Shown here: positions 5,027-15,470 of the stretch, in pieces
How positions within the stretch are numbered: the stretch's first letter is position 1
Layout: every line of letters begins with the position of its first letter
From: a virus
IMG/VR virus record: IMGVR_UViG_3300009103_000007
Span: 1-64,000 of that record
DNA length: 64,000 nucleotides
Reading direction: 5' to 3' (one strand)
The notes under the pieces: model-generated
Seen by the model: only the letters and a program-made list of their open reading frames with translations
What the model was told of the DNA's origin: nothing
Databases searched by the model: none
Made by a program: the position numbers and the translations under genes

Positions 5027-5395
5027 ATGGTATTTGATAATTCATTAAAGAAAAAACCTGAAAGGTTGAAAAGTTTAAATAAAGATTTCGACATATACTC
5101 TTCTCTAATTTCAGAAGAAAAGATAGATCGTAAGTTTTTCGAAAAATTAAAATTTCTAAAATTAGAGGAATTAATAGCTTTAAAACTTTCTTCAGCTTCA
5201 ATAGGAATTAAAGGAAAATTAATTAATTTTCCTTTAATTAAATTTATTTCAGATATCTCCAAGGAGGCCTGTGTTTTATTTGCTTTATCAAGTACTGACT
5301 CTAAAAGAGATGCGGCAATGATACTTGGAATTACGAAAAAAGAACTCAATCGCTTAATTAAAGTGTATGATATTGATTTAAAAAAGGAGAAATGA
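5027..5395 (+). CDS. Small protein with Fis/NtrC-type helix-turn-helix C-terminus
   Basis: A 122-residue basic protein. The C-terminal 30 residues (SKRDAAMILGITKKELNRL, then IKVYDID) fit the helix-turn-helix pattern of Fis and NtrC-family C-termini, where AAxxLGI-turn-xLxRxIKxY is typical. The first 90 residues are helical, without a known domain. It has its own candidate promoter upstream and overlaps the start of a tiny membrane-protein gene. A role as DNA-binding regulator is inference from the HTH pattern alone. Confidence 0.6.
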   Translation: MVFDNSLKKKPERLKSLNKDFDIYSSLISEEKIDRKFFEKLKFLKLEELIALKLSSASIGIKGKLINFPLIKFISDISKEACVLFALSSTDSKRDAAMILGITKKELNRLIKVYDIDLKKEK

Positions 5396-6143: not shown

Positions 6144-6560
6144 ATGCCTAAATTTTATAGACAAAACAGAAAAAATATCAATCCAAGATATTTTTTGAAT
6201 GAGACTGCACAAAGAGAGGACGAAGCTGACTTAGCACAATGTGCTCAACATTTATTGCAGGGAGAAAAATGTTCCGGTCACTTCACAGATTTGGAATCTT
6301 TAAATGACCGAGGCATAAAGATGTTAGCTAATTTTTTTGATGACATAAGTAATGAAACGAATTGTGTCCTCACTACTTGTGAGGTAAAGGCTCTGTATCA
6401 TAGAATAGTCCAGATTTATGGAAAAGAATATGCTAGGAGTATGGCGTTTAAGCCAGAAATTTTTCAACATGAGGTGGAGGATATCAAAAACAGATACAAA
6501 GAAATAGATCAGATGTTTGATAATTCAATTCCAAGAGGCCTCGACCGAGGGGGAGAATAG
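6144..6560 (+). CDS. Putative packaged protein, NPRYFLNE leader type (copy 1)
   Basis: A 138-residue protein starting MPKFYRQNRKNINPRYFLNE-TAQ, with AAAGGAG placed well before the ATG. The first 20 residues are basic and aromatic and end in L-N-E before a small residue, matching the (L/I)xE cut pattern of T4-type prohead proteases. The next gene begins with an almost parallel segment, while the bodies of the two proteins are unrelated by eye. The body is mixed helical with four Cys residues. Function is not recognised. I infer packaging in the phage head from the leader only. Confidence 0.6.
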   Translation: MPKFYRQNRKNINPRYFLNETAQREDEADLAQCAQHLLQGEKCSGHFTDLESLNDRGIKMLANFFDDISNETNCVLTTCEVKALYHRIVQIYGKEYARSMAFKPEIFQHEVEDIKNRYKEIDQMFDNSIPRGLDRGGE

Positions 6561-6564
6561 AGAT

Positions 6565-7023
6565 ATGCCAAAAGTATACAAAAATAAAAAGAAGTTTATT
6601 GATCCAAGATATTTTCTGAATGAGACTGTAAATAGGGATTTGGAAGAAGCAGTAGTGGATCCCGGCCTTACAAAAGGTGGCCAATGGCCAGGAGTTAACC
6701 CACAAAAGAGGGCTTCTGATTTAGCTCAACAAGCTATGGATAGACAGACCTCTGGCGAAATACCCCCTTGGGAGGGTGATGGAACTCCAGATGTTCAGCT
6801 AGATCTTTTGACGGGAGAAGATATTGCAGTTCTGGAAAGTATATTACATCATTTTCGCAGAAGTAAGTATAGCGGCGGCGGAGACCGAGGCGACCGATTT
6901 GCGGAAATAATGGCCAAACTCGGAATAAAATTGAGTGATCACGAAAATATGTCTGACTGGTCAGAGGAAGATAAAGAACATGCTCGAAGAGCGGAATTAC
7001 ATAGAAAAAACTGGAATAGATAA
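6565..7023 (+). CDS. Putative packaged protein, NPRYFLNE leader type (copy 2)
   Basis: The start chosen is the ATG at 6565, after GGGGGAGAATAGAGAT; an upstream in-frame ATG at 6517 lies inside the previous gene and would add residues absent from the sister protein. The product is 152 aa and begins MPKVYKNKKKFIDPRYFLNE-T, the same leader design as its neighbour. The body is Gly/Pro-rich in the middle and ends in a charged helix. No domain is recognised. The shared leader with a different body is the pattern seen repeatedly in this window. Confidence 0.6.
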   Translation: MPKVYKNKKKFIDPRYFLNETVNRDLEEAVVDPGLTKGGQWPGVNPQKRASDLAQQAMDRQTSGEIPPWEGDGTPDVQLDLLTGEDIAVLESILHHFRRSKYSGGGDRGDRFAEIMAKLGIKLSDHENMSDWSEEDKEHARRAELHRKNWNR

Positions 7024-7036
7024 AGGAGGAGGCACT

Positions 7037-7132
7037 ATGAAAGGGTTACTACATAGAATAGCAAATTTATTCAATGCAAAGCATTGCTGCTGCTGCTGTG
7101 GCTGTTGTTCATGCACTAGCGGCTGCTGTTAA
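7037..7132 (+). CDS. 31-aa cysteine-rich microprotein
   Basis: ATG at 7037, preceded by AAGGAGGAGG, one of the strongest ribosome sites in the window. The product starts MKGLLHRIANLFNAKH, an amphipathic basic helix, and ends CCCCCGCCSCTSGCC, giving 10 Cys in the last 15 residues. No family is recognised. Metal binding (metallothionein-like), multiple acylation or a disulfide cluster are all possible. It sits 4 bases before the leader-bearing gene at 7136. It is shorter than usual gene-calling cut-offs. Confidence 0.55.
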   Translation: MKGLLHRIANLFNAKHCCCCCGCCSCTSGCC

Positions 7133-7135
7133 ATC

Positions 7136-7531
7136 ATGAAATTGATAATGGAAAACTGGAAACGATTCTTAAAAGAAGCTGATTGGCCGCCGCGGCACCA
7201 TACAGATTCATTCGGCCATGCTGGCACCTCTGGTTTAGGTGAAGATGAAGACGCGTCAGAATTGGCTCGCAAATTAATGGTAGTTATACGTACTCCAACG
7301 GATTTTTGCCAAGAAACCCCAGAAGACGAAGATTGTTTTAGTGCTGACTTTTTGGTAAATTTGTTGAAGAACAGAAATACGCCCGGATTTGATTGGCCCG
7401 AAGACGTCGAAACACCGGAAGAGTTGGCGTTATATTTGTGTTCTCGCGAAGGTCGTAATAGTGAGTGGAGTTGGGTTGCGGAGGAGGCAGTTCAAAAATA
7501 TCTTCAACTAGGTGAAGAAGGGAAGCTTTAG
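7136..7531 (+). CDS. Putative packaged cargo protein with MKLIMENW leader
   Basis: A 131-residue acidic protein that begins MKLIMENWKRFLKE-ADW: a 14-residue leader with L-K-E before Ala, the consensus cut of T4-type prohead proteases and similar in design to T4 internal-protein leaders (MKTYQEFIAE-A). The body is acidic, with two or three Cys, and matches nothing I know. Its TAG stop (7529-7531) shares its last G with the first base of the tmRNA. Ribosome binding may depend on coupling with the Cys-rich gene 4 bases upstream. Confidence 0.65.
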   Translation: MKLIMENWKRFLKEADWPPRHHTDSFGHAGTSGLGEDEDASELARKLMVVIRTPTDFCQETPEDEDCFSADFLVNLLKNRNTPGFDWPEDVETPEELALYLCSREGRNSEWSWVAEEAVQKYLQLGEEGKL

Positions 7532-7835
7532 GGGGTGTAAAGGTATCGACAGGGTAAGGACAATAATGCGTGCAAGGCTGTGTGAGTGAGGTCACAGTAA
7601 AAACACTCAAAACTATAAATGCCAACGATGATGTTGAAATTTTCGAGGACTTTGCGCTTGCCGCATAGTTCTTGAGGAGGTTTTCCAGATACCTTCTTAA
7701 CCGAACATCTGGAATTGATATATTTGATAATTTATTTGCTAATTAACGGCTGTCTAGGGCCAGATCTAGACTAACCTTGTGAACGACGTATTGTTTGAGA
7801 TGTTCTGGACAGGAGTTCAATTCTCCTCACCTCCA
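7531..7835 (+). ncRNA. ssrA: Transfer-messenger RNA (tmRNA)
   Basis: The 5' end GGGGGTG (7531-7537) pairs with CACCTCC (7828-7834) to form the acceptor stem, followed by discriminator A7835. The T arm is AGGAG-TTCAATT-CTCCT. The messenger part encodes ANDDVEIFEDFALAA then TAG (7621-7668), a canonical ssrA degradation tag ending in ALAA, preceded by the usual A-rich resume region. It is a one-piece molecule, not permuted. CCA is not encoded after A7835 (AAT follows), so a CCA-adding enzyme would be needed. During infection it could rescue stalled ribosomes and tag products for Clp-type proteases; a ClpP-like gene is present at 21739. It directly precedes the cargo array. Confidence 0.93.
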
Positions 7836-7844
7836 AATCCACCC

Positions 7845-7892
7845 AAAACTTTGGGCGTTTCCACTGATGGAGATGTCCAAAGTTTTTTATTT
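7845..7892 (+). terminator. Intrinsic terminator after tmRNA
   Basis: Perfect 10-base inverted repeat AAAACTTTGG (7845-7854) / CCAAAGTTTT (7877-7886). The loop can extend the stem through TCCA/TGGA, and a T-rich run follows. It lies 10 bases after the tmRNA 3' end, as expected for its terminator. Confidence 0.7.
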
Positions 7893-7965: not shown

Positions 7966-8009
7966 GGAACAAAAGGTTTACACTTAGAGCCAAGTGGAGT
8001 AAATTTGTG

Positions 8010-8028
8010 ACTCTCGCCACCTCCACCA
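8010..8028 (+). repeat. tmRNA-3'-end-like repeat R1
   Basis: ACTCTCGCCACCTCCACCA, one mismatch from the R3/R4 form. It is followed by a conserved 30-base linker (ACTTTTCTTATTTTGGA, then ACTATTTAATAT) into the ATG at 8059. It looks like the T-stem 3' strand, acceptor 3' strand, discriminator and CCA of a tmRNA. Confidence 0.75.
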
Positions 8029-8058
8029 ACTTTTCTTATTTTGGAAACTATTTAATAT

Positions 8059-8979
8059 ATGAAACTTATAATGGAAAACTGGAGAAAGTATTTAATAAAA
8101 GAAGAATTGTCCACACAAATATTTCCGGATTCGCCACTCGTCGCCATAAATCGCCCGGAAAAAATTCTTGCTCACTTTCCAAATGATGACCCCGAAGAAA
8201 TCGAAATACAAATCCGACTCCAGAATTATTTTAATGACTACAACAATCGCTTAGCACCCAGCCGGCTCAATATGATTCAGGAACTCAGCGTGCTTTTCAA
8301 CCGCTTCTTCGATGCAAGAAAGGACGTCGATGCTTCTAAGCCGAACTACCCGGGCACATATTCGAGAGAGTACGGTGATCCCCAATTTGGTCGACCATGG
8401 GAAGGAACCTTGGATATACATCCGAACCCGGAAGAGCGACCCGAGTATCGCCGAACAAGACGCCTCTACGGTTCTGAAGTTTTATGGGAATTTAGAAAAA
8501 GAGTAGAACACATAATCAGAAATTACAGCACCGGCACCAAGAATACATGGACCAGAACGTTGAGCTCGGGAAATACAACATTCAATATCTGGAAAGAAGT
8601 GAACGAATACGTCAACGAAGCCGCCAGGATAGCCAATGCCTGGGGAGGAGATCTTAAGTCAGTGTACCACGGCCCGCGGAGGGATCGCCAAGCTTGGAGG
8701 CCGGCCGCCGAAGAATACACAAAAGAAAAGTTAGCTGAATGGCAATCAAAACTGGAGCAACTGAAGATTGAAATTTATGAAAATCTTCAGACCGGATATC
8801 AGAAGTTACAAACAGAATTGGGGCCACTTATAAGAAAAGCACTAGAAGGACGCGTCGCTATGGCTATACCCACACCAGGCCAAGGAGAGATATCAATTTC
8901 GGATGAAGTTGGCGGTCTATCATTTCCCGATGATGCAATCGGAGGAGGAGTAGATTTTCAATTCGATCCAAAGAAATAG
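8059..8979 (+). CDS. Putative packaged cargo protein with MKLIMENW leader, 306 aa
   Basis: Begins MKLIMENWRKYLIKE-ELS, the shared leader, with I-K-E at the predicted cut. The rest is rich in charged residues and helical, with many Arg/Tyr/Pro residues between 90 and 150 and a probable coiled coil at about 215-265. No catalytic motif is recognised. Repeat R1 and the common GGA-ACTATTTAATAT linker precede the ATG; repeat R2 follows the stop by about 20 bases. The unit therefore looks like one cassette: element, leader, unrelated body, element. Confidence 0.65.
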   Translation: MKLIMENWRKYLIKEELSTQIFPDSPLVAINRPEKILAHFPNDDPEEIEIQIRLQNYFNDYNNRLAPSRLNMIQELSVLFNRFFDARKDVDASKPNYPGTYSREYGDPQFGRPWEGTLDIHPNPEERPEYRRTRRLYGSEVLWEFRKRVEHIIRNYSTGTKNTWTRTLSSGNTTFNIWKEVNEYVNEAARIANAWGGDLKSVYHGPRRDRQAWRPAAEEYTKEKLAEWQSKLEQLKIEIYENLQTGYQKLQTELGPLIRKALEGRVAMAIPTPGQGEISISDEVGGLSFPDDAIGGGVDFQFDPKK

Positions 8980-8998
8980 TTTATTTGGGACTTTGATT

Positions 8999-9011
8999 GC
9001 CACCTCCACCA
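8999..9011 (+). repeat. tmRNA-3'-end-like repeat R2
   Basis: GCCACCTCCACCA, the acceptor/CCA part of the element; the upstream T-stem part is degenerate here (GATT in place of CTCC). It is followed by AACTTTTCTC and, 40 bases on, GGAGACTATTTAAAATATG, where that ATG opens only an 8-codon frame before the real start at 9087. Confidence 0.65.
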
Positions 9012-9086
9012 ACTTTTCTCTTATTTGGAACTAATTACAATAAGGAGACTATTTAAAATATGAGAGAAAAAGGAGAAAATCTTTAA

Positions 9087-9323
9087 ATGAAAGTTACAAA
9101 GCAGTATTTAAGAAAGTTAATTAAAGAAGAGGTTGCTAAATCTCTGAATGAATCCGACTTGGCAACACCGGAGGCCCAACTTCAATACGTCAAAAGAGAG
9201 TTAGGTCAAATGCTATTTAATAAGGGCGCGCCCGCTTGGAGTCGACTCCCAGACCTCTGGGTCAAACTTGAAGATATCGCCACGAAGATAGGTGTAGAAC
9301 TACGAGGAAATTCAGCGCGCTAA
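9087..9323 (+). CDS. Small putative packaged protein, tandem L-x-E leader
   Basis: A 78-residue protein beginning MKVTKQYLRKLIKE-EVAKSLNE-SDL. It has two successive (L/I)xE sites at residues 12-14 and 20-22 in a basic amphipathic helix, a second leader type that resembles the internal-start segment at 855. The remainder is one or two helices with no known motif. AAAAAGGAG precedes the ATG. It is flanked by repeats R2 and R3. Confidence 0.6.
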   Translation: MKVTKQYLRKLIKEEVAKSLNESDLATPEAQLQYVKRELGQMLFNKGAPAWSRLPDLWVKLEDIATKIGVELRGNSAR

Positions 9324-9326
9324 ATA

Positions 9327-9345
9327 ACTCCCGCCACCTCCACCA
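9327..9345 (+). repeat. tmRNA-3'-end-like repeat R3
   Basis: ACTCCCGCCACCTCCACCA, identical to R4 and, as I recall the E. coli ssrA 3' end, differing from it at one position. It starts 4 bases after a stop codon. The conserved downstream linker is lost; the promoter of the next gene takes its place. Confidence 0.75.
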
Positions 9346-9354
9346 ACTTTTTAC

Positions 9355-9383
9355 TTTACATTTAGATAAAATTGTTTTATACT
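9355..9383 (+). promoter_or_regulatory. Strong sigma70-like promoter for the barrel protein
   Basis: TTTACA (9355-9360), a 17-base spacer and TATACT (9378-9383), both close to consensus. The expected start is near 9390, leaving a leader of about 28 bases that contains GATAGGAG before the ATG at 9418. Confidence 0.65.
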
Positions 9384-9417
9384 GTTCCTAACATTAAAAA
9401 AAGATAGGAGTATATAA

Positions 9418-9966
9418 ATGTTAAAGAAAGTAATTTTAGTAGCAACAGTAATGTTCGCAACTTTGGCACTCGCTGGGTACCCACAAGCAGAAGCCCACCC
9501 AACAGATAAAGAGGGTGTCAAGAAATGGACAAAGAGGTCAGGTCTCAGATTAGGTTATGTTTATGCCAATAAGGCTGATGAACCTGACGCAGATGGCGAG
9601 GAGTCAAAACTTAACAGCCCTCATATGTTCACGATGGGATTCGAACTACAACAATGTATGCCAGGGGGAGATTGGCTGGACGTTTTGTTTATTCAGAATG
9701 TGAGTATTACTGGCCTTGACCAGAGTGTCGTGTCACCATCGGCTCGGGTACTAGTTGGGTTTGAAATTGACAAATCAGTTCAATTAGCAGTCGGTCCTCA
9801 GTTATCATTCCACGACCCATCAGGAGAAGACAAGTATGTTCATCTTACAGCTGCCATAGGCTACACGATGGATGCCGGTGTATTTAGTGTACCGGTTCAC
9901 TTGAGCTTTGTGCCTGACGTCAACAATTATTGGGCAACAGCCATCACTACCGGTGTAAACTGGTAA
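9418..9966 (+). CDS. Secreted outer-membrane beta-barrel-like protein
   Basis: A 182-residue protein with a classical signal peptide (MLKKVILVATVMFATLALAG..AEA, predicted cut near residue 26). The mature part has alternating hydrophobic stretches (LRLGYVY, MFTMGFEL, SARVLVGFEI, VQLAVGPQLSF, VHLTAAIGYTM, VPVHLSF) and ends TGVNW with a terminal aromatic residue, as do many outer-membrane barrels. No specific family is recognised. It has no packaging leader, has its own sigma70-like promoter and lies between repeats R3 and R4, so it is a different kind of passenger from its neighbours. Remodelling of the host envelope or superinfection exclusion would be plausible; this is inference. Confidence 0.65.
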   Translation: MLKKVILVATVMFATLALAGYPQAEAHPTDKEGVKKWTKRSGLRLGYVYANKADEPDADGEESKLNSPHMFTMGFELQQCMPGGDWLDVLFIQNVSITGLDQSVVSPSARVLVGFEIDKSVQLAVGPQLSFHDPSGEDKYVHLTAAIGYTMDAGVFSVPVHLSFVPDVNNYWATAITTGVNW

Positions 9967-9973
9967 ACAAATA

Positions 9974-9992
9974 ACTCCCGCCACCTCCACCA
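9974..9992 (+). repeat. tmRNA-3'-end-like repeat R4
   Basis: ACTCCCGCCACCTCCACCA, identical to R3. It is followed by ACTTTTCTTACTTTGGAG then ACTACTTAATAT and the ATG at 10023, matching the R1 and R5 linkers with single substitutions. Confidence 0.75.
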
Positions 9993-10022
9993 ACTTTTCT
10001 TACTTTGGAGACTACTTAATAT

Positions 10023-10340
10023 ATGAAACATAAACTTATAATGGAAAACTGGAAGAAGTTTTTAACAGAGGAACACTCAGATCAGCAGAAATACGAACTT
10101 GGCCGCCGTTGGTCACAACAGGAGATGGAAGACCAACATGACATCGCACCTGATTGGCTAGATGATGCATACGAAGTGACGGTCGCCATGCAAAAATCTG
10201 GAGAAATAGCCTCCGGTACACCACCAGAAGAATTAGCAAAAAAGTATTCTTCCGGAAATTTAGAATTAGAAAAATTTCTGATTGTTAACATAATGCTTCA
10301 TCGCCTAAGAGGTAATCTTGGAGACAGGGGTTTAGCATAA
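10023..10340 (+). CDS. Putative packaged cargo protein with MKLIMENW-type leader, 105 aa
   Basis: Begins MKHKLIMENWKKFLTE-EHS. Compared with the other copies, an AAACAT hexamer is inserted after the second codon, adding two residues. The cut site is L-T-E. The body is acidic and helical, with no known motif. The TAA stop shares its last base with the first base of repeat R5, so the cassette boundary is immediately at the gene end. Confidence 0.65.
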   Translation: MKHKLIMENWKKFLTEEHSDQQKYELGRRWSQQEMEDQHDIAPDWLDDAYEVTVAMQKSGEIASGTPPEELAKKYSSGNLELEKFLIVNIMLHRLRGNLGDRGLA

Positions 10341-10358
10341 CCCCCGCCACCTCCACCA
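10340..10358 (+). repeat. tmRNA-3'-end-like repeat R5
   Basis: ACCCCCGCCACCTCCACCA, one mismatch from R3/R4. It is followed by ATTTTTCTTATTTTGGAG then ACTATTTAATAT and the ATG at 10389. R1, R4 and R5 are similar from the element through the first dozen codons of the next gene. Confidence 0.75.
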
Positions 10359-10388
10359 ATTTTTCTTATTTTGGAGACTATTTAATAT

Positions 10389-11435
10389 ATGAAACTTATA
10401 ATGGAAAATTGGCGCCAGTTCATAATTGAGTCTGATTACCGCTCGCGCGCTGTTTATATGAAGGCTCGTGATAATACTAAATATGCTTATATTTTCGGCA
10501 CTGTCTCAGGCAAGGTCCTTGAGGCAAAAAATGAAACAGACATGTACTATGGCGCATCAATGCCAAAGCCCATAATGGCTTTAGCTCACATGAAGAAGTT
10601 CCGAAATGCGGAAGAGGGATCCCTCAAAAAACTGACAGACGAGGAGCTGAAAGGTTTGTTGAATTATGTTGGATACGGCGCCCACGCAAGCAATGCAGTA
10701 AATAAGAGAATTATAGCAAAGGTTTCAGATAAGGAAGCTACAGATTTCATCGCGAGTACTGGAATAGCTTCGAACATTTCCAGTGAAGAACATCCGATGG
10801 GTCAGGACGCCCCGCGGGACAAGTCAGCCGCTTACGAAAAAGATGTAAAGAAGAAGGGCCGTTATATCACGAAACCAAAAAAAATGACGATTAAGCGCGG
10901 ATCCTTCCGGAACAAACAAACTCCACTGCAATTTTTCAATTTTTTAACATTTTTGTATAAAACTCGTAAAATGTTTTCAACTCAATCTCACGCGGATCCT
11001 CAAATTAATGAATTTAATAAAATTATGAGTATTATGAGGAGAGATTATTTTGGGGTAAATAAGCGCGACCGAGAAAATCAGGGGTTTGAGTTTATAAAGA
11101 AGTATTTAAACCACAAAGGCATAAAGGTATCTAAAGTGTATGGCAAAGGCGGCCGCGCCGCAGGTTCACTAAACTATGGCATCATAATAGATGATAAATG
11201 GATATTCTCAATATATACAGACTTTACAGCCGGCGCATGGAAACCTAAAAAAACCCACGAAAAAGATAAGTCGAAAAGAAGTCACTGGGCAACACACTCC
11301 GGACCAACAAGCCGAAGAAAACCCAGAAACAAATATGTCAAGATTATAAAAATAGGAGGAGAAAGATGGGAAGTGGGGGAAAGCAAGCTCCGATTGGTAG
11401 AGATTATAGCCAAAGTAATGAGTCGAAACACATGA
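10389..11435 (+). CDS. Packaged serine DD-peptidase/beta-lactamase-fold protein
   Basis: Leader MKLIMENWRQFIIE-SDY with I-I-E at the predicted cut. The body has the motif order of class A beta-lactamases and low-molecular-mass DD-peptidases: S57-M-P-K60 followed by PIMALAHMKKF (SxxK helix), a helix with HASNAVN near 99-105 where SDNxAxN would be expected, and K253-G-G followed by SLNYGIII and WIFSIYTDF (KTG strand). The second motif is degenerate, so activity is not assured. There is no signal peptide. With the packaging leader it would be delivered with the DNA, possibly acting on peptidoglycan. The 3' end overlaps the next gene by 70 bases. Confidence 0.65.
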   Translation: MKLIMENWRQFIIESDYRSRAVYMKARDNTKYAYIFGTVSGKVLEAKNETDMYYGASMPKPIMALAHMKKFRNAEEGSLKKLTDEELKGLLNYVGYGAHASNAVNKRIIAKVSDKEATDFIASTGIASNISSEEHPMGQDAPRDKSAAYEKDVKKKGRYITKPKKMTIKRGSFRNKQTPLQFFNFLTFLYKTRKMFSTQSHADPQINEFNKIMSIMRRDYFGVNKRDRENQGFEFIKKYLNHKGIKVSKVYGKGGRAAGSLNYGIIIDDKWIFSIYTDFTAGAWKPKKTHEKDKSKRSHWATHSGPTSRRKPRNKYVKIIKIGGERWEVGESKLRLVEIIAKVMSRNT

Positions 11436-13592: not shown

Positions 13593-15470
13593 ATGTCTAA
13601 AGTTATTGGAATTGACCTAGGAACTACCAATTCGGTCGTCACGGTCATGGACTCTGGAGAACCCAGTGTCCTAACAAACGAGGAGGGGACTCGGACAACC
13701 CCATCTGTGGTAGCATATACAAAGTCAGGTGAACGTTTGGTTGGAATCATGGCTCGCAGGCAAGCGGTCACGAATCCTGAAAACACAATTTATTCTATTA
13801 AACGTTTTATCGGGATGAAGCATTCTGAGGTGATTGAGGAATCCTCAAAGATGCCATACAAGATTCAAAAATCAAAAACAGGAATGTGTGAGGTGTTAGT
13901 GGGCGAAAAAGCCCTATCACCACCAGAAATTTCCGCCCAAATATTAATAAAATTAAAATCGGCGGCAGAAAATTTTCTTGGCGTTGAAGTGAAAGAAGCG
14001 GTAATCACGGTTCCTGCATATTTTAATGACTCTCAGCGACAAGCAACAAGAGACGCCGGCAAGATTGCAGGTCTAAATATCAAAAGAATTATTAACGAGC
14101 CCACTGCGGCAGCCTTGGCTTATGGGATGGACAAAGGCGAAGATAAGAAGATTCTCGTTTATGATCTTGGTGGTGGTACTTTTGATGTCTCTGTGTTGGA
14201 AATCGGCGATGGCGTAGTGGAAGTATTGAGTACTAACGGAGATACCCATTTAGGCGGAGATGATATCGATAATGTGTTAATATCTTGGCTGACTGATTGT
14301 TTTAGGGAGGAAACTGGTATAGATATAACTAAAGAGGCGATGGTTACTCAAAGATTGAGAGAGGCAGCTGAGCGCGCTAAGATAGAACTATCCAGTGCAC
14401 AACAGACAGAGGTAAATTTGCCGTTTTTAACTGCTGACTCTACAGGGCCAAAACACCTTCAGGTTACATTATCTAGATCACAATTTGAAAAGATGATTGA
14501 TAGTTTAGTCTCGAAGACAATAATTCCGATACGGCGCGCCCTCGAAGATGCTGACATTGCAAAAGAGAGTTTAGATGAAATACTTCTAGTGGGTGGGTCC
14601 ACTAGGATTCCATTGGTGAAAAAGACTGTCGAAAGTTTCTTTAAAAAATCAATAAATTCGTCGGTCAATCCAGATGAAGTTGTTGCCCTCGGCGCCGCCG
14701 TTCAGGGTGGAGTGTTTATGGGGGAGGTTAATGACATACTACTGCTGGATGTTACTCCGCTTTCTTTGGGACTGGAAACAATGGGCGGAGTCATGACGCG
14801 TCTTATTGAGAGGAATACAACGATTCCGTGTTCCAAATCACAGACATTCACAACAGCAGAAAACAACCAGCCGGCTGTAGATATAAAGGTATTACAAGGG
14901 GAAAGAGAATTTTCAAAAGACAATAAGAACTTGGGCACGTTCAAATTAGATGGTATACCACCGGCTCCACGTGGAACTCCCCAAATTGAAGTTACGTTTG
15001 ATATAGACGCAAATGGAATTGTTAGTGTTCGTGCATTAGATAAGGCCGCAAACAAGGAACAAAAAATTACAATACAGGGTAGCGGTACTTTATCTTCTGA
15101 TGAAGTAGACAGGATGGTTCGCGAAGCCAAAGAAAACGAAACCCAAGATAGAGAAAAAAGGGAAATGATTGATGCACAAAACTTGCTGGAATCAACGATC
15201 TTTCAAGCAGAGAAATTCTTAGAGGAGCATGAAGAGAAAATATCTTCGATTATTAAAGAAGATATCACGAAGACAATTGATTCATCAAAACATTTTTTGA
15301 AGTCAGAAAAAAGTATAGAAGTAATTCAATCTGAGGTTGTAAAACTCAACACTGCTCTGCATGCTGCAGCTAAGAGCCTGTATGAGAATACTGCAGACAC
15401 AAATCGACATCCAGACCAGTCGGAAAATCACGAAGAAGATATAATTGATGCTGAGTTTGAAGAAACTTAG
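13593..15470 (+). CDS. dnaK: Full-length DnaK (Hsp70) chaperone
   Basis: A 625-residue Hsp70 with all main parts: GIDLGTTNS phosphate-1 loop (6-14), D191LGGGTFDVS phosphate-2 loop, VGGSTRIP near 335-345 and the [11 protein letters not shown] linker followed by the beta-sandwich substrate domain (to about 500). A helical lid follows, and the C-terminus ends [10 protein letters not shown], like the bacterial consensus. No broken motif is seen. GGAGG precedes the ATG. No dnaJ or grpE is in the window, so it would depend on host co-chaperones. It could assist folding of the very large virion proteins or refolding of ejected cargo; that is inference. An intact DnaK is uncommon in phage genomes. 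Confidence 0.95.

Follow-up and report, generated by a model that had tools for sequence, protein, structure and literature searches.

Copies of a tmRNA 3' end bound a probable ssrA-anchored cassette array in uncultured T4-like phages

The window analyzed here is the first 64 kb of the 121-kb IMG/VR record IMGVR_UViG_3300009103_000007. It carries a phage tmRNA (ssrA) gene followed on the same strand by five cassettes, A to E, which are separated by copies of a short repeat, R (Table 1). The string GCCACCTCCACCAACTTTT occurs five times between 8016 and 10364, always on the plus strand and once in each successive gap 3' of the tmRNA, the first copy starting 174 nt downstream of the tmRNA end. 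With its continuation ACTTTT and up to three mismatches allowed, the pattern matched five times in the 64 kb, against 0.03 matches expected from shuffles; no further copies were found on either strand of the rest of the 121-kb record, and a reversed control pattern gave no matches. This confirms the original prediction of five copies in successive gaps behind the phage tmRNA, with R3 and R4 identical.

Table 1. Features of the tmRNA locus and the cassettes behind it, in window coordinates.
Feature	Position	Strand	Description
Phage tmRNA (ssrA)	7531-7836	+	ARAGORN; Rfam RF00023, 107 bits; tag ANDDVEIFEDFALAA
HNH-gene remnant	7836-7886	+	5' flank AATCCACCCAAAACTTTGGGCGTTTCCAC joined to TGGAGATGTCCAAAGT (gene start region)
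Promoter-like element	7977-8005	+	TTTACA-17-TAAATT, shared with HNH-linked cassette of L088
R1	8010-8028	+	ssrA 3'-end copy, ACTCTCGCCACCTCCACCA
Linker after R1	8029-8058	+	kind seen directly 3' of tmRNA in L007, L008, L010
Cassette A	8059-8979	+	leader gene MKLIMENWRKYLIKE..., 306 aa
R2	8999-9011	+	ssrA 3'-end copy, left side truncated: GCCACCTCCACCA only, preceding six bases unrelated
Cassette B	9087-9323	+	78-aa gene (MKVTKQYLRKLIKEE...), no MENW leader
R3	9327-9345	+	ssrA 3'-end copy, ACTCCCGCCACCTCCACCA, identical to R4
Cassette C	9418-9966	+	182 aa, signal-peptide-like start
R4	9974-9992	+	ssrA 3'-end copy, ACTCCCGCCACCTCCACCA, identical to R3
Cassette D	10023-10340	+	leader gene, 105 aa
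R5	10340-10358	+	ssrA 3'-end copy, ACCCCCGCCACCTCCACCA
Cassette E	10389-11435	+	leader gene, 348 aa, array's distal end

At R1, R4 and R5 the repeat extends beyond the length first described into a full unit of about 80-90 nt, consisting of R, a 30-nt linker (ACTTTTCTTATTTTGGAGACTATTTAATAT) that carries a ribosome-binding site, and the first codons of a shared leader. A common linker and leader start had been proposed to follow every R; this is the case for these three copies, the only ones that precede leader genes, and not for R2 and R3, which stand before genes without the MENW leader.

The presence of well-conserved R in every array gap could mean that R is a functional RNA signal under selection, such as a terminator, a processing signal or a translation element. 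The 5' strand of the T-stem is missing from R, however, and four of the five stretches in the window fold with z-scores no better than -1.4 relative to shuffles, while the z-score of -2.2 at R4 is due mostly to a hairpin 5' of R. No terminators were called at R1-R5, no other gap in the 121-kb record has an R, and degenerate copies exist. We consider an RNA signal very unlikely.

The origin of R can be read from relatives gathered by a scan for the tmRNA core, all of which are metagenome contigs and most of which are incomplete. In nine of them (L007, L008, L009, L010, L011, L012, L013, L016 and L197) the tmRNA end is not interrupted by an endonuclease gene, and R is the tmRNA 3' end itself, from T-loop to CCA, ending GCGGGTTCGACTCCCGCCACCTCCACCA / GGACGCGGGTTCGACTCCCGCCACCTCCACCA; the original reading of R as a tmRNA end is thus borne out. 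ACTTTT continues the tmRNA end in six (L007, L008, L010, L012, L013 and L016), and in L007 and L010 the linker and a leader gene lie directly behind it. By sequence comparison, R plus linker is therefore this phage lineage's own ssrA end together with its downstream neighbour, in the allele without the endonuclease. The resident tmRNA of the window differs from R, with a T-arm of AGGAG/CTCCT, the 3' end TTCTCCTCACCTCCA (AGGAGTTCAATTCTCCTCACCTCCA) and no encoded CCA, which suggests that R1-R5 descend from an ssrA allele other than the resident one.

R3 and R4 presumably differ from the E. coli ssrA end at one position, and host ssrA had been put forward as the source of R. We rejected a host origin in favor of the phage's own ssrA and downstream linker: the 25-nt R-plus-linker pattern was not matched exactly by any of 84,980 cellular genomes (GTDB collection). 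In the tmRNA scan R was also found at the end of many unrelated tmRNAs, which would explain its likeness to bacterial ssrA without a host origin, and in places resembling prophage attachment sites. Cultured relatives were not recovered by either search, the tmRNA giving short 3'-end matches only and the 820-aa neighbour protein none.

The target gene is intact, with displaced 3' fragments downstream, in the window, L007, G003 and G012. The exception is G001 (L215), a 190-kb contig with seven R copies within L215:7600-12060 in which no tmRNA is detectable over the whole record; the array there persists without its anchor, and the tmRNA may have been lost. Two tmRNAs of about 450 nt (L226:117-565 and L140:2808-3261) have a small ORF (MSNKESGYGIRADLLTLARDILSENFHSRLE...) instead of the pseudoknot region, between the tag stop and the tRNA-like 3' part. 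G015 has an aberrant T-loop (L140:3223-3261, GCGGG-AGTCGGA-GCCCGC, where all relatives have TTCRAYT), possibly marking an endonuclease-resistant or dead allele. Just 5' of the tmRNA locus, a tiny Cys-rich peptide (...HCCCCCGCCSC...CC) is conserved in the window (7038-7132), L007, L008 and L014.

A comparison of the window with G001 indicates that cassettes move. Core proteins are 30-79% identical between the two, against 96% for C and 92% for D; at the DNA level the identity is 87% for C (9322-10002) and 91% for D (9986-10412), and both ends of the matching stretches fall at R. The window has C and D side by side, and G001 has two other cassettes between them. L225 matches the window at 92% through the end of C, R4 and the start of the leader, after which its body is a different one.

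Other pairs of contigs differ by insertion or replacement at the tmRNA end. L012 has a single R, at the tmRNA, followed by a promoter-like ACTTTTCTTGACATTAT, whereas L007 has two cassettes (about 0.7 kb) between the tmRNA end and a degenerate R with the ACTTTTCTTGACATTAT promoter. L007 contains two matches to L012 2127-2154, one running up to 4438 and the other starting at 5152 in the degenerate distal copy, so that, on alignment, the difference is an insertion with a copy of the ssrA end on either side. The ssrA genes of G012 and G015 share 96.5% identity ending exactly at CACCTCCA; beyond it G012 has an HNH gene, one more gene and R, followed by 74 nt that are 100% identical to the sequence directly following ssrA in G015. 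L143 and G015 have flanks of 100% and 99% identity around one exchanged cassette, with the right joint at R. In L143 an apparent HNH-gene tail directly precedes R, which suggests that the HNH gene is itself an R-bounded cassette. In a set of three near-identical contigs, the differences comprise whole cassettes at the repeats, and some breakpoints lie in the leader instead of R.

The decisive check of the original prediction was whether breakpoints between related phages fall at R and set off whole cassettes, and they do in the C/D exchange, L007/L012, G012/G015 and L143/G015. The comparisons thus show, at the level of sequence, insertion between duplicated R copies, whole-cassette exchange between diverged phages and swaps among near-identical ones, with breakpoints at R or in the R-linker-leader block. 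Metagenome contigs might be misjoined at repeats of 20-90 nt, but the 9-13% DNA difference in C and D between the window and G001 points to evolved rather than misjoined sequence. L088 and G012 belong to different IMG datasets and share 7,539 bp at full identity, and the pattern recurs across many contigs. An assembly artefact is in our judgment extremely improbable.

These comparisons also bear on plain tandem duplication, in which a unit of ssrA 3' end, linker and leader gene was copied without any mobility and the bodies diverged later. In L007 and L010 the tmRNA is directly followed by the first leader gene, and R would have been copied along with it. Yet R is also found ahead of unrelated genes that have no leader (B, C and an iscU-like gene in L007), C and D are far closer between phages than the core while their neighbours differ, and near-identical contigs differ by whole cassettes. 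Duplication may account for the origin of the first copies; as an account of the array it is contradicted by the C/D exchange, and we hold it to be quite improbable.

The cassette proteins give few clues to their functions, with no Pfam or PHROGs matches for A, C, D and E. No homologue of C was found in bacterial genomes. Relatives of C (74-80%) lie directly behind tRNA genes, without R, in two other phage groups; these tRNA genes are Arg-like and Met-like by sequence (in L216 and L217 upstream of 10001, in L220 and L221 upstream of the C homologue). More distant relatives of C have no R-like sequence within 400 nt. IscU-like and IscA-like genes adjoin the array (L007:5211-6796, L105, L225:478-870), L007 has a cysteine-synthase-like gene, and the window encodes a full-length DnaK/Hsp70-like protein of 625 aa (13593-15470).

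A tyrosine recombinase had been suggested as the agent of cassette movement. This was not upheld by the search, which found no PF00589 in 16 records and, for serine recombinases, no PF00239 in 17 records (several of these records span 175-193 kb, and they may be incomplete); none of the cassettes examined showed a recombinase gene. A UvsX/RecA gene was found in 7 of 10 records, the misses being the window's own 121-kb record and two other partial records. The array is not an integron: no tyrosine recombinase was found in the 16 records, and R, unlike attC, has no consistent fold of its own.

Site-specific integration, in which a tyrosine or serine recombinase from the host, a satellite or some unseen region of the genome inserts single-gene circles into ssrA between T-loop and CCA, would fit an identity block that spans T-loop to CCA, a known signature of tDNA islands, and the insertions between duplicated R copies (L007/L012, G012/G015). 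It also has a precedent in the ssrA-specific genomic islands of Dehalococcoides, which lie in tandem behind ssrA, are bounded by 20-bp ssrA repeats and have an insertion point mapped to the T-loop (PMC3146451). Like the phage array, they form a row of strain-specific cargo with ssrA 3'-end copies between. They differ in lying on a bacterial chromosome, in being larger and in that many encode the serine recombinase DsiB (PMC3146451), whereas the phage array has one- or two-gene cassettes, an HNH endonuclease gene at the site and no recombinase found. Given the empty recombinase searches and the breakpoints within the leader, we regard site-specific integration as unlikely.

The HNH gene lies at the ssrA 3' end in L088/L226, L014, L231, L230 and L232. 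The copy at L088:195-746 matches phrog_3322 (endonuclease, 8e-18) and phrog_1035 (endonuclease VII, 5e-12) in PHROGs and nothing in Pfam. A collection scan placed its homologues at 68 loci, and each of the six closest (54-100% identity) begins some 60 nt downstream of a phage tmRNA; the tmRNAs of L227 and L228 were recognized from the sequence and by a second analysis, not by ARAGORN. At the more distant loci no tmRNA was found. Two crAss-like homologues (38-41% identity) in annotated records do not lie directly behind a tmRNA. The ribosome-binding site and start codon of the HNH gene lie within a long hairpin at all four loci folded (z -7 to -9), with compensatory changes in 4 of 16 pairs; translational control of free-standing endonuclease genes is discussed in a review of T4 (PMC2988022).

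The window retains a remnant of this gene between the tmRNA and R1. Its flank also adjoins the HNH genes of L088/L226 and L014; loop and gene are deleted, and a terminator scan and folding show a terminator-like 19-bp stem followed by a T-run (z -6.5). The promoter-like region shares 36 nt at 89% with L088:718-753. The HNH gene adjoins its presumed target. Endonuclease-bearing alleles have no encoded CCA and mostly other T-arms (AGGAG in the window, L014 and L231; AGCGG in L230), while GCGGG is common to the nine endonuclease-free alleles; this may reflect co-conversion of the flank or shared descent. G012 has perfect R copies together with an intact HNH gene, which makes it unlikely that R by itself is the complete cutting site. 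At L215:11631-11700 an R copy is split between CACCTCCA and CCA by a 56-nt piece containing a palindrome (ACAAAAGGTATACA...TGTATACCTTTTGT), at the position where the HNH flank is also inserted.

From these features the array probably contains, or once contained, a free-standing endonuclease locus of the T4-type kind. SegB, SegF and MobE are the free-standing homing endonucleases of T-even phages (PMC2988022); the array resembles them in having the gene between genes and beside its presumed target, and in what would be UvsX-dependent repair. In T6, SegB amplifies genes of the tRNA region in a uvsX-dependent manner, by tandem amplification through microhomology (PMC13096335). SegB is a GIY-YIG enzyme and yields identical repeats, whereas the array enzyme is HNH/endonuclease-VII-like and sits at the tmRNA, and the array consists of different genes in series with ssrA ends at their borders.

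The leader may point to the fate of the cargo. Its consensus over 140 distinct leaders is MENWRKFLxE, with conservation dropping after the E, and the bodies share nothing else (mean column identity 8%); scattered, unrelated domains occur among 62 leader proteins (TMEM65, GNAT, amidase, PAP2, GDSL lipase, LysM). The window's own record encodes a T4-type (gp21-type) prohead protease (PF03420, 98212-98631, E 9e-32), as do eight relatives. In T4, internal proteins have a short leader that gp21 removes by cutting at L/I-x-E (PMC9026906). The FLxE end and the protease suggest that the leader is probably a T4-type capsid-targeting sequence and the bodies head cargo. T4 internal proteins and Alt likewise combine a short N-terminal leader ending L/I-x-E with unrelated bodies, a gp21-type protease and a variable set (PMC9026906); the phage leader differs in its own sequence, MKLIMENWRKFLxE, in its many more genes and in a cargo partly organized by ssrA-end joints. 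A second shared start in the window, MPK(F/V)Y...(N/D)PRYFLNET (6144-6560 and 6565-7023), also ends FLNE and is possibly another head-targeting leader.

R had been proposed to explain how unrelated bodies acquire the same leader. Many leader genes have no R upstream, so R alone does not explain it and is not the usual route of leader acquisition. R, linker and leader form one homology block for joining new bodies, and leader DNA is a second. PeSL cassettes of T4-type phages are repeated intergenic modules of promoter and stem-loop that supply homology for gene shuffling. Here the repeated module is instead the tmRNA 3' end plus linker, and stem-loop and promoter are combined only in the HNH remnant before R1.

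The explanation we favor, and consider reasonably probable on the sequence evidence, is an ssrA-anchored cassette array shuffled by HNH-stimulated break repair, with head-delivered cargo. A cassette would enter at the joint at the ssrA 3' end, where the array grows; a functional tmRNA end would be kept or replaced, and the old end pushed downstream to drift. Exchange would proceed by UvsX-type recombination through homology in the R-linker-leader block, and a free-standing HNH endonuclease, encoded at the ssrA 3' end and decayed in the window, would stimulate it. The array would then encode an exchangeable repertoire of proteins that are packaged in the head and passed on to the host. The HNH gene at ssrA ends, the lack of any recombinase found and the presence of UvsX/RecA make endonuclease-stimulated break repair the leading mechanism, in which the enzyme would cleave the ssrA end. 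More tentatively, the array may serve dedicated gene capture, with an ssrA-specific homing endonuclease as first cassette opening endonuclease-free ends in co-infecting phages; if true, head-delivered effector cassettes would be stacked behind a tmRNA on an integron-like platform without an integrase.

Our literature search found nothing on point for phage tmRNA arrays. Each part of the favored explanation has a known counterpart. The explanation joins three topics: the use of ssrA as an address by mobile DNA, recombination hot spots created by homing endonucleases, and proteins packaged in the head. If the leader does serve as a targeting signal, cargo landing behind R, linker and leader would be packaged, and a scan for R plus linker would yield a list of candidate injected proteins in uncultured phages. 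The array would offer virulent-type phages a concrete way, open to testing, of acquiring and swapping accessory proteins at a fixed address without an integrase.
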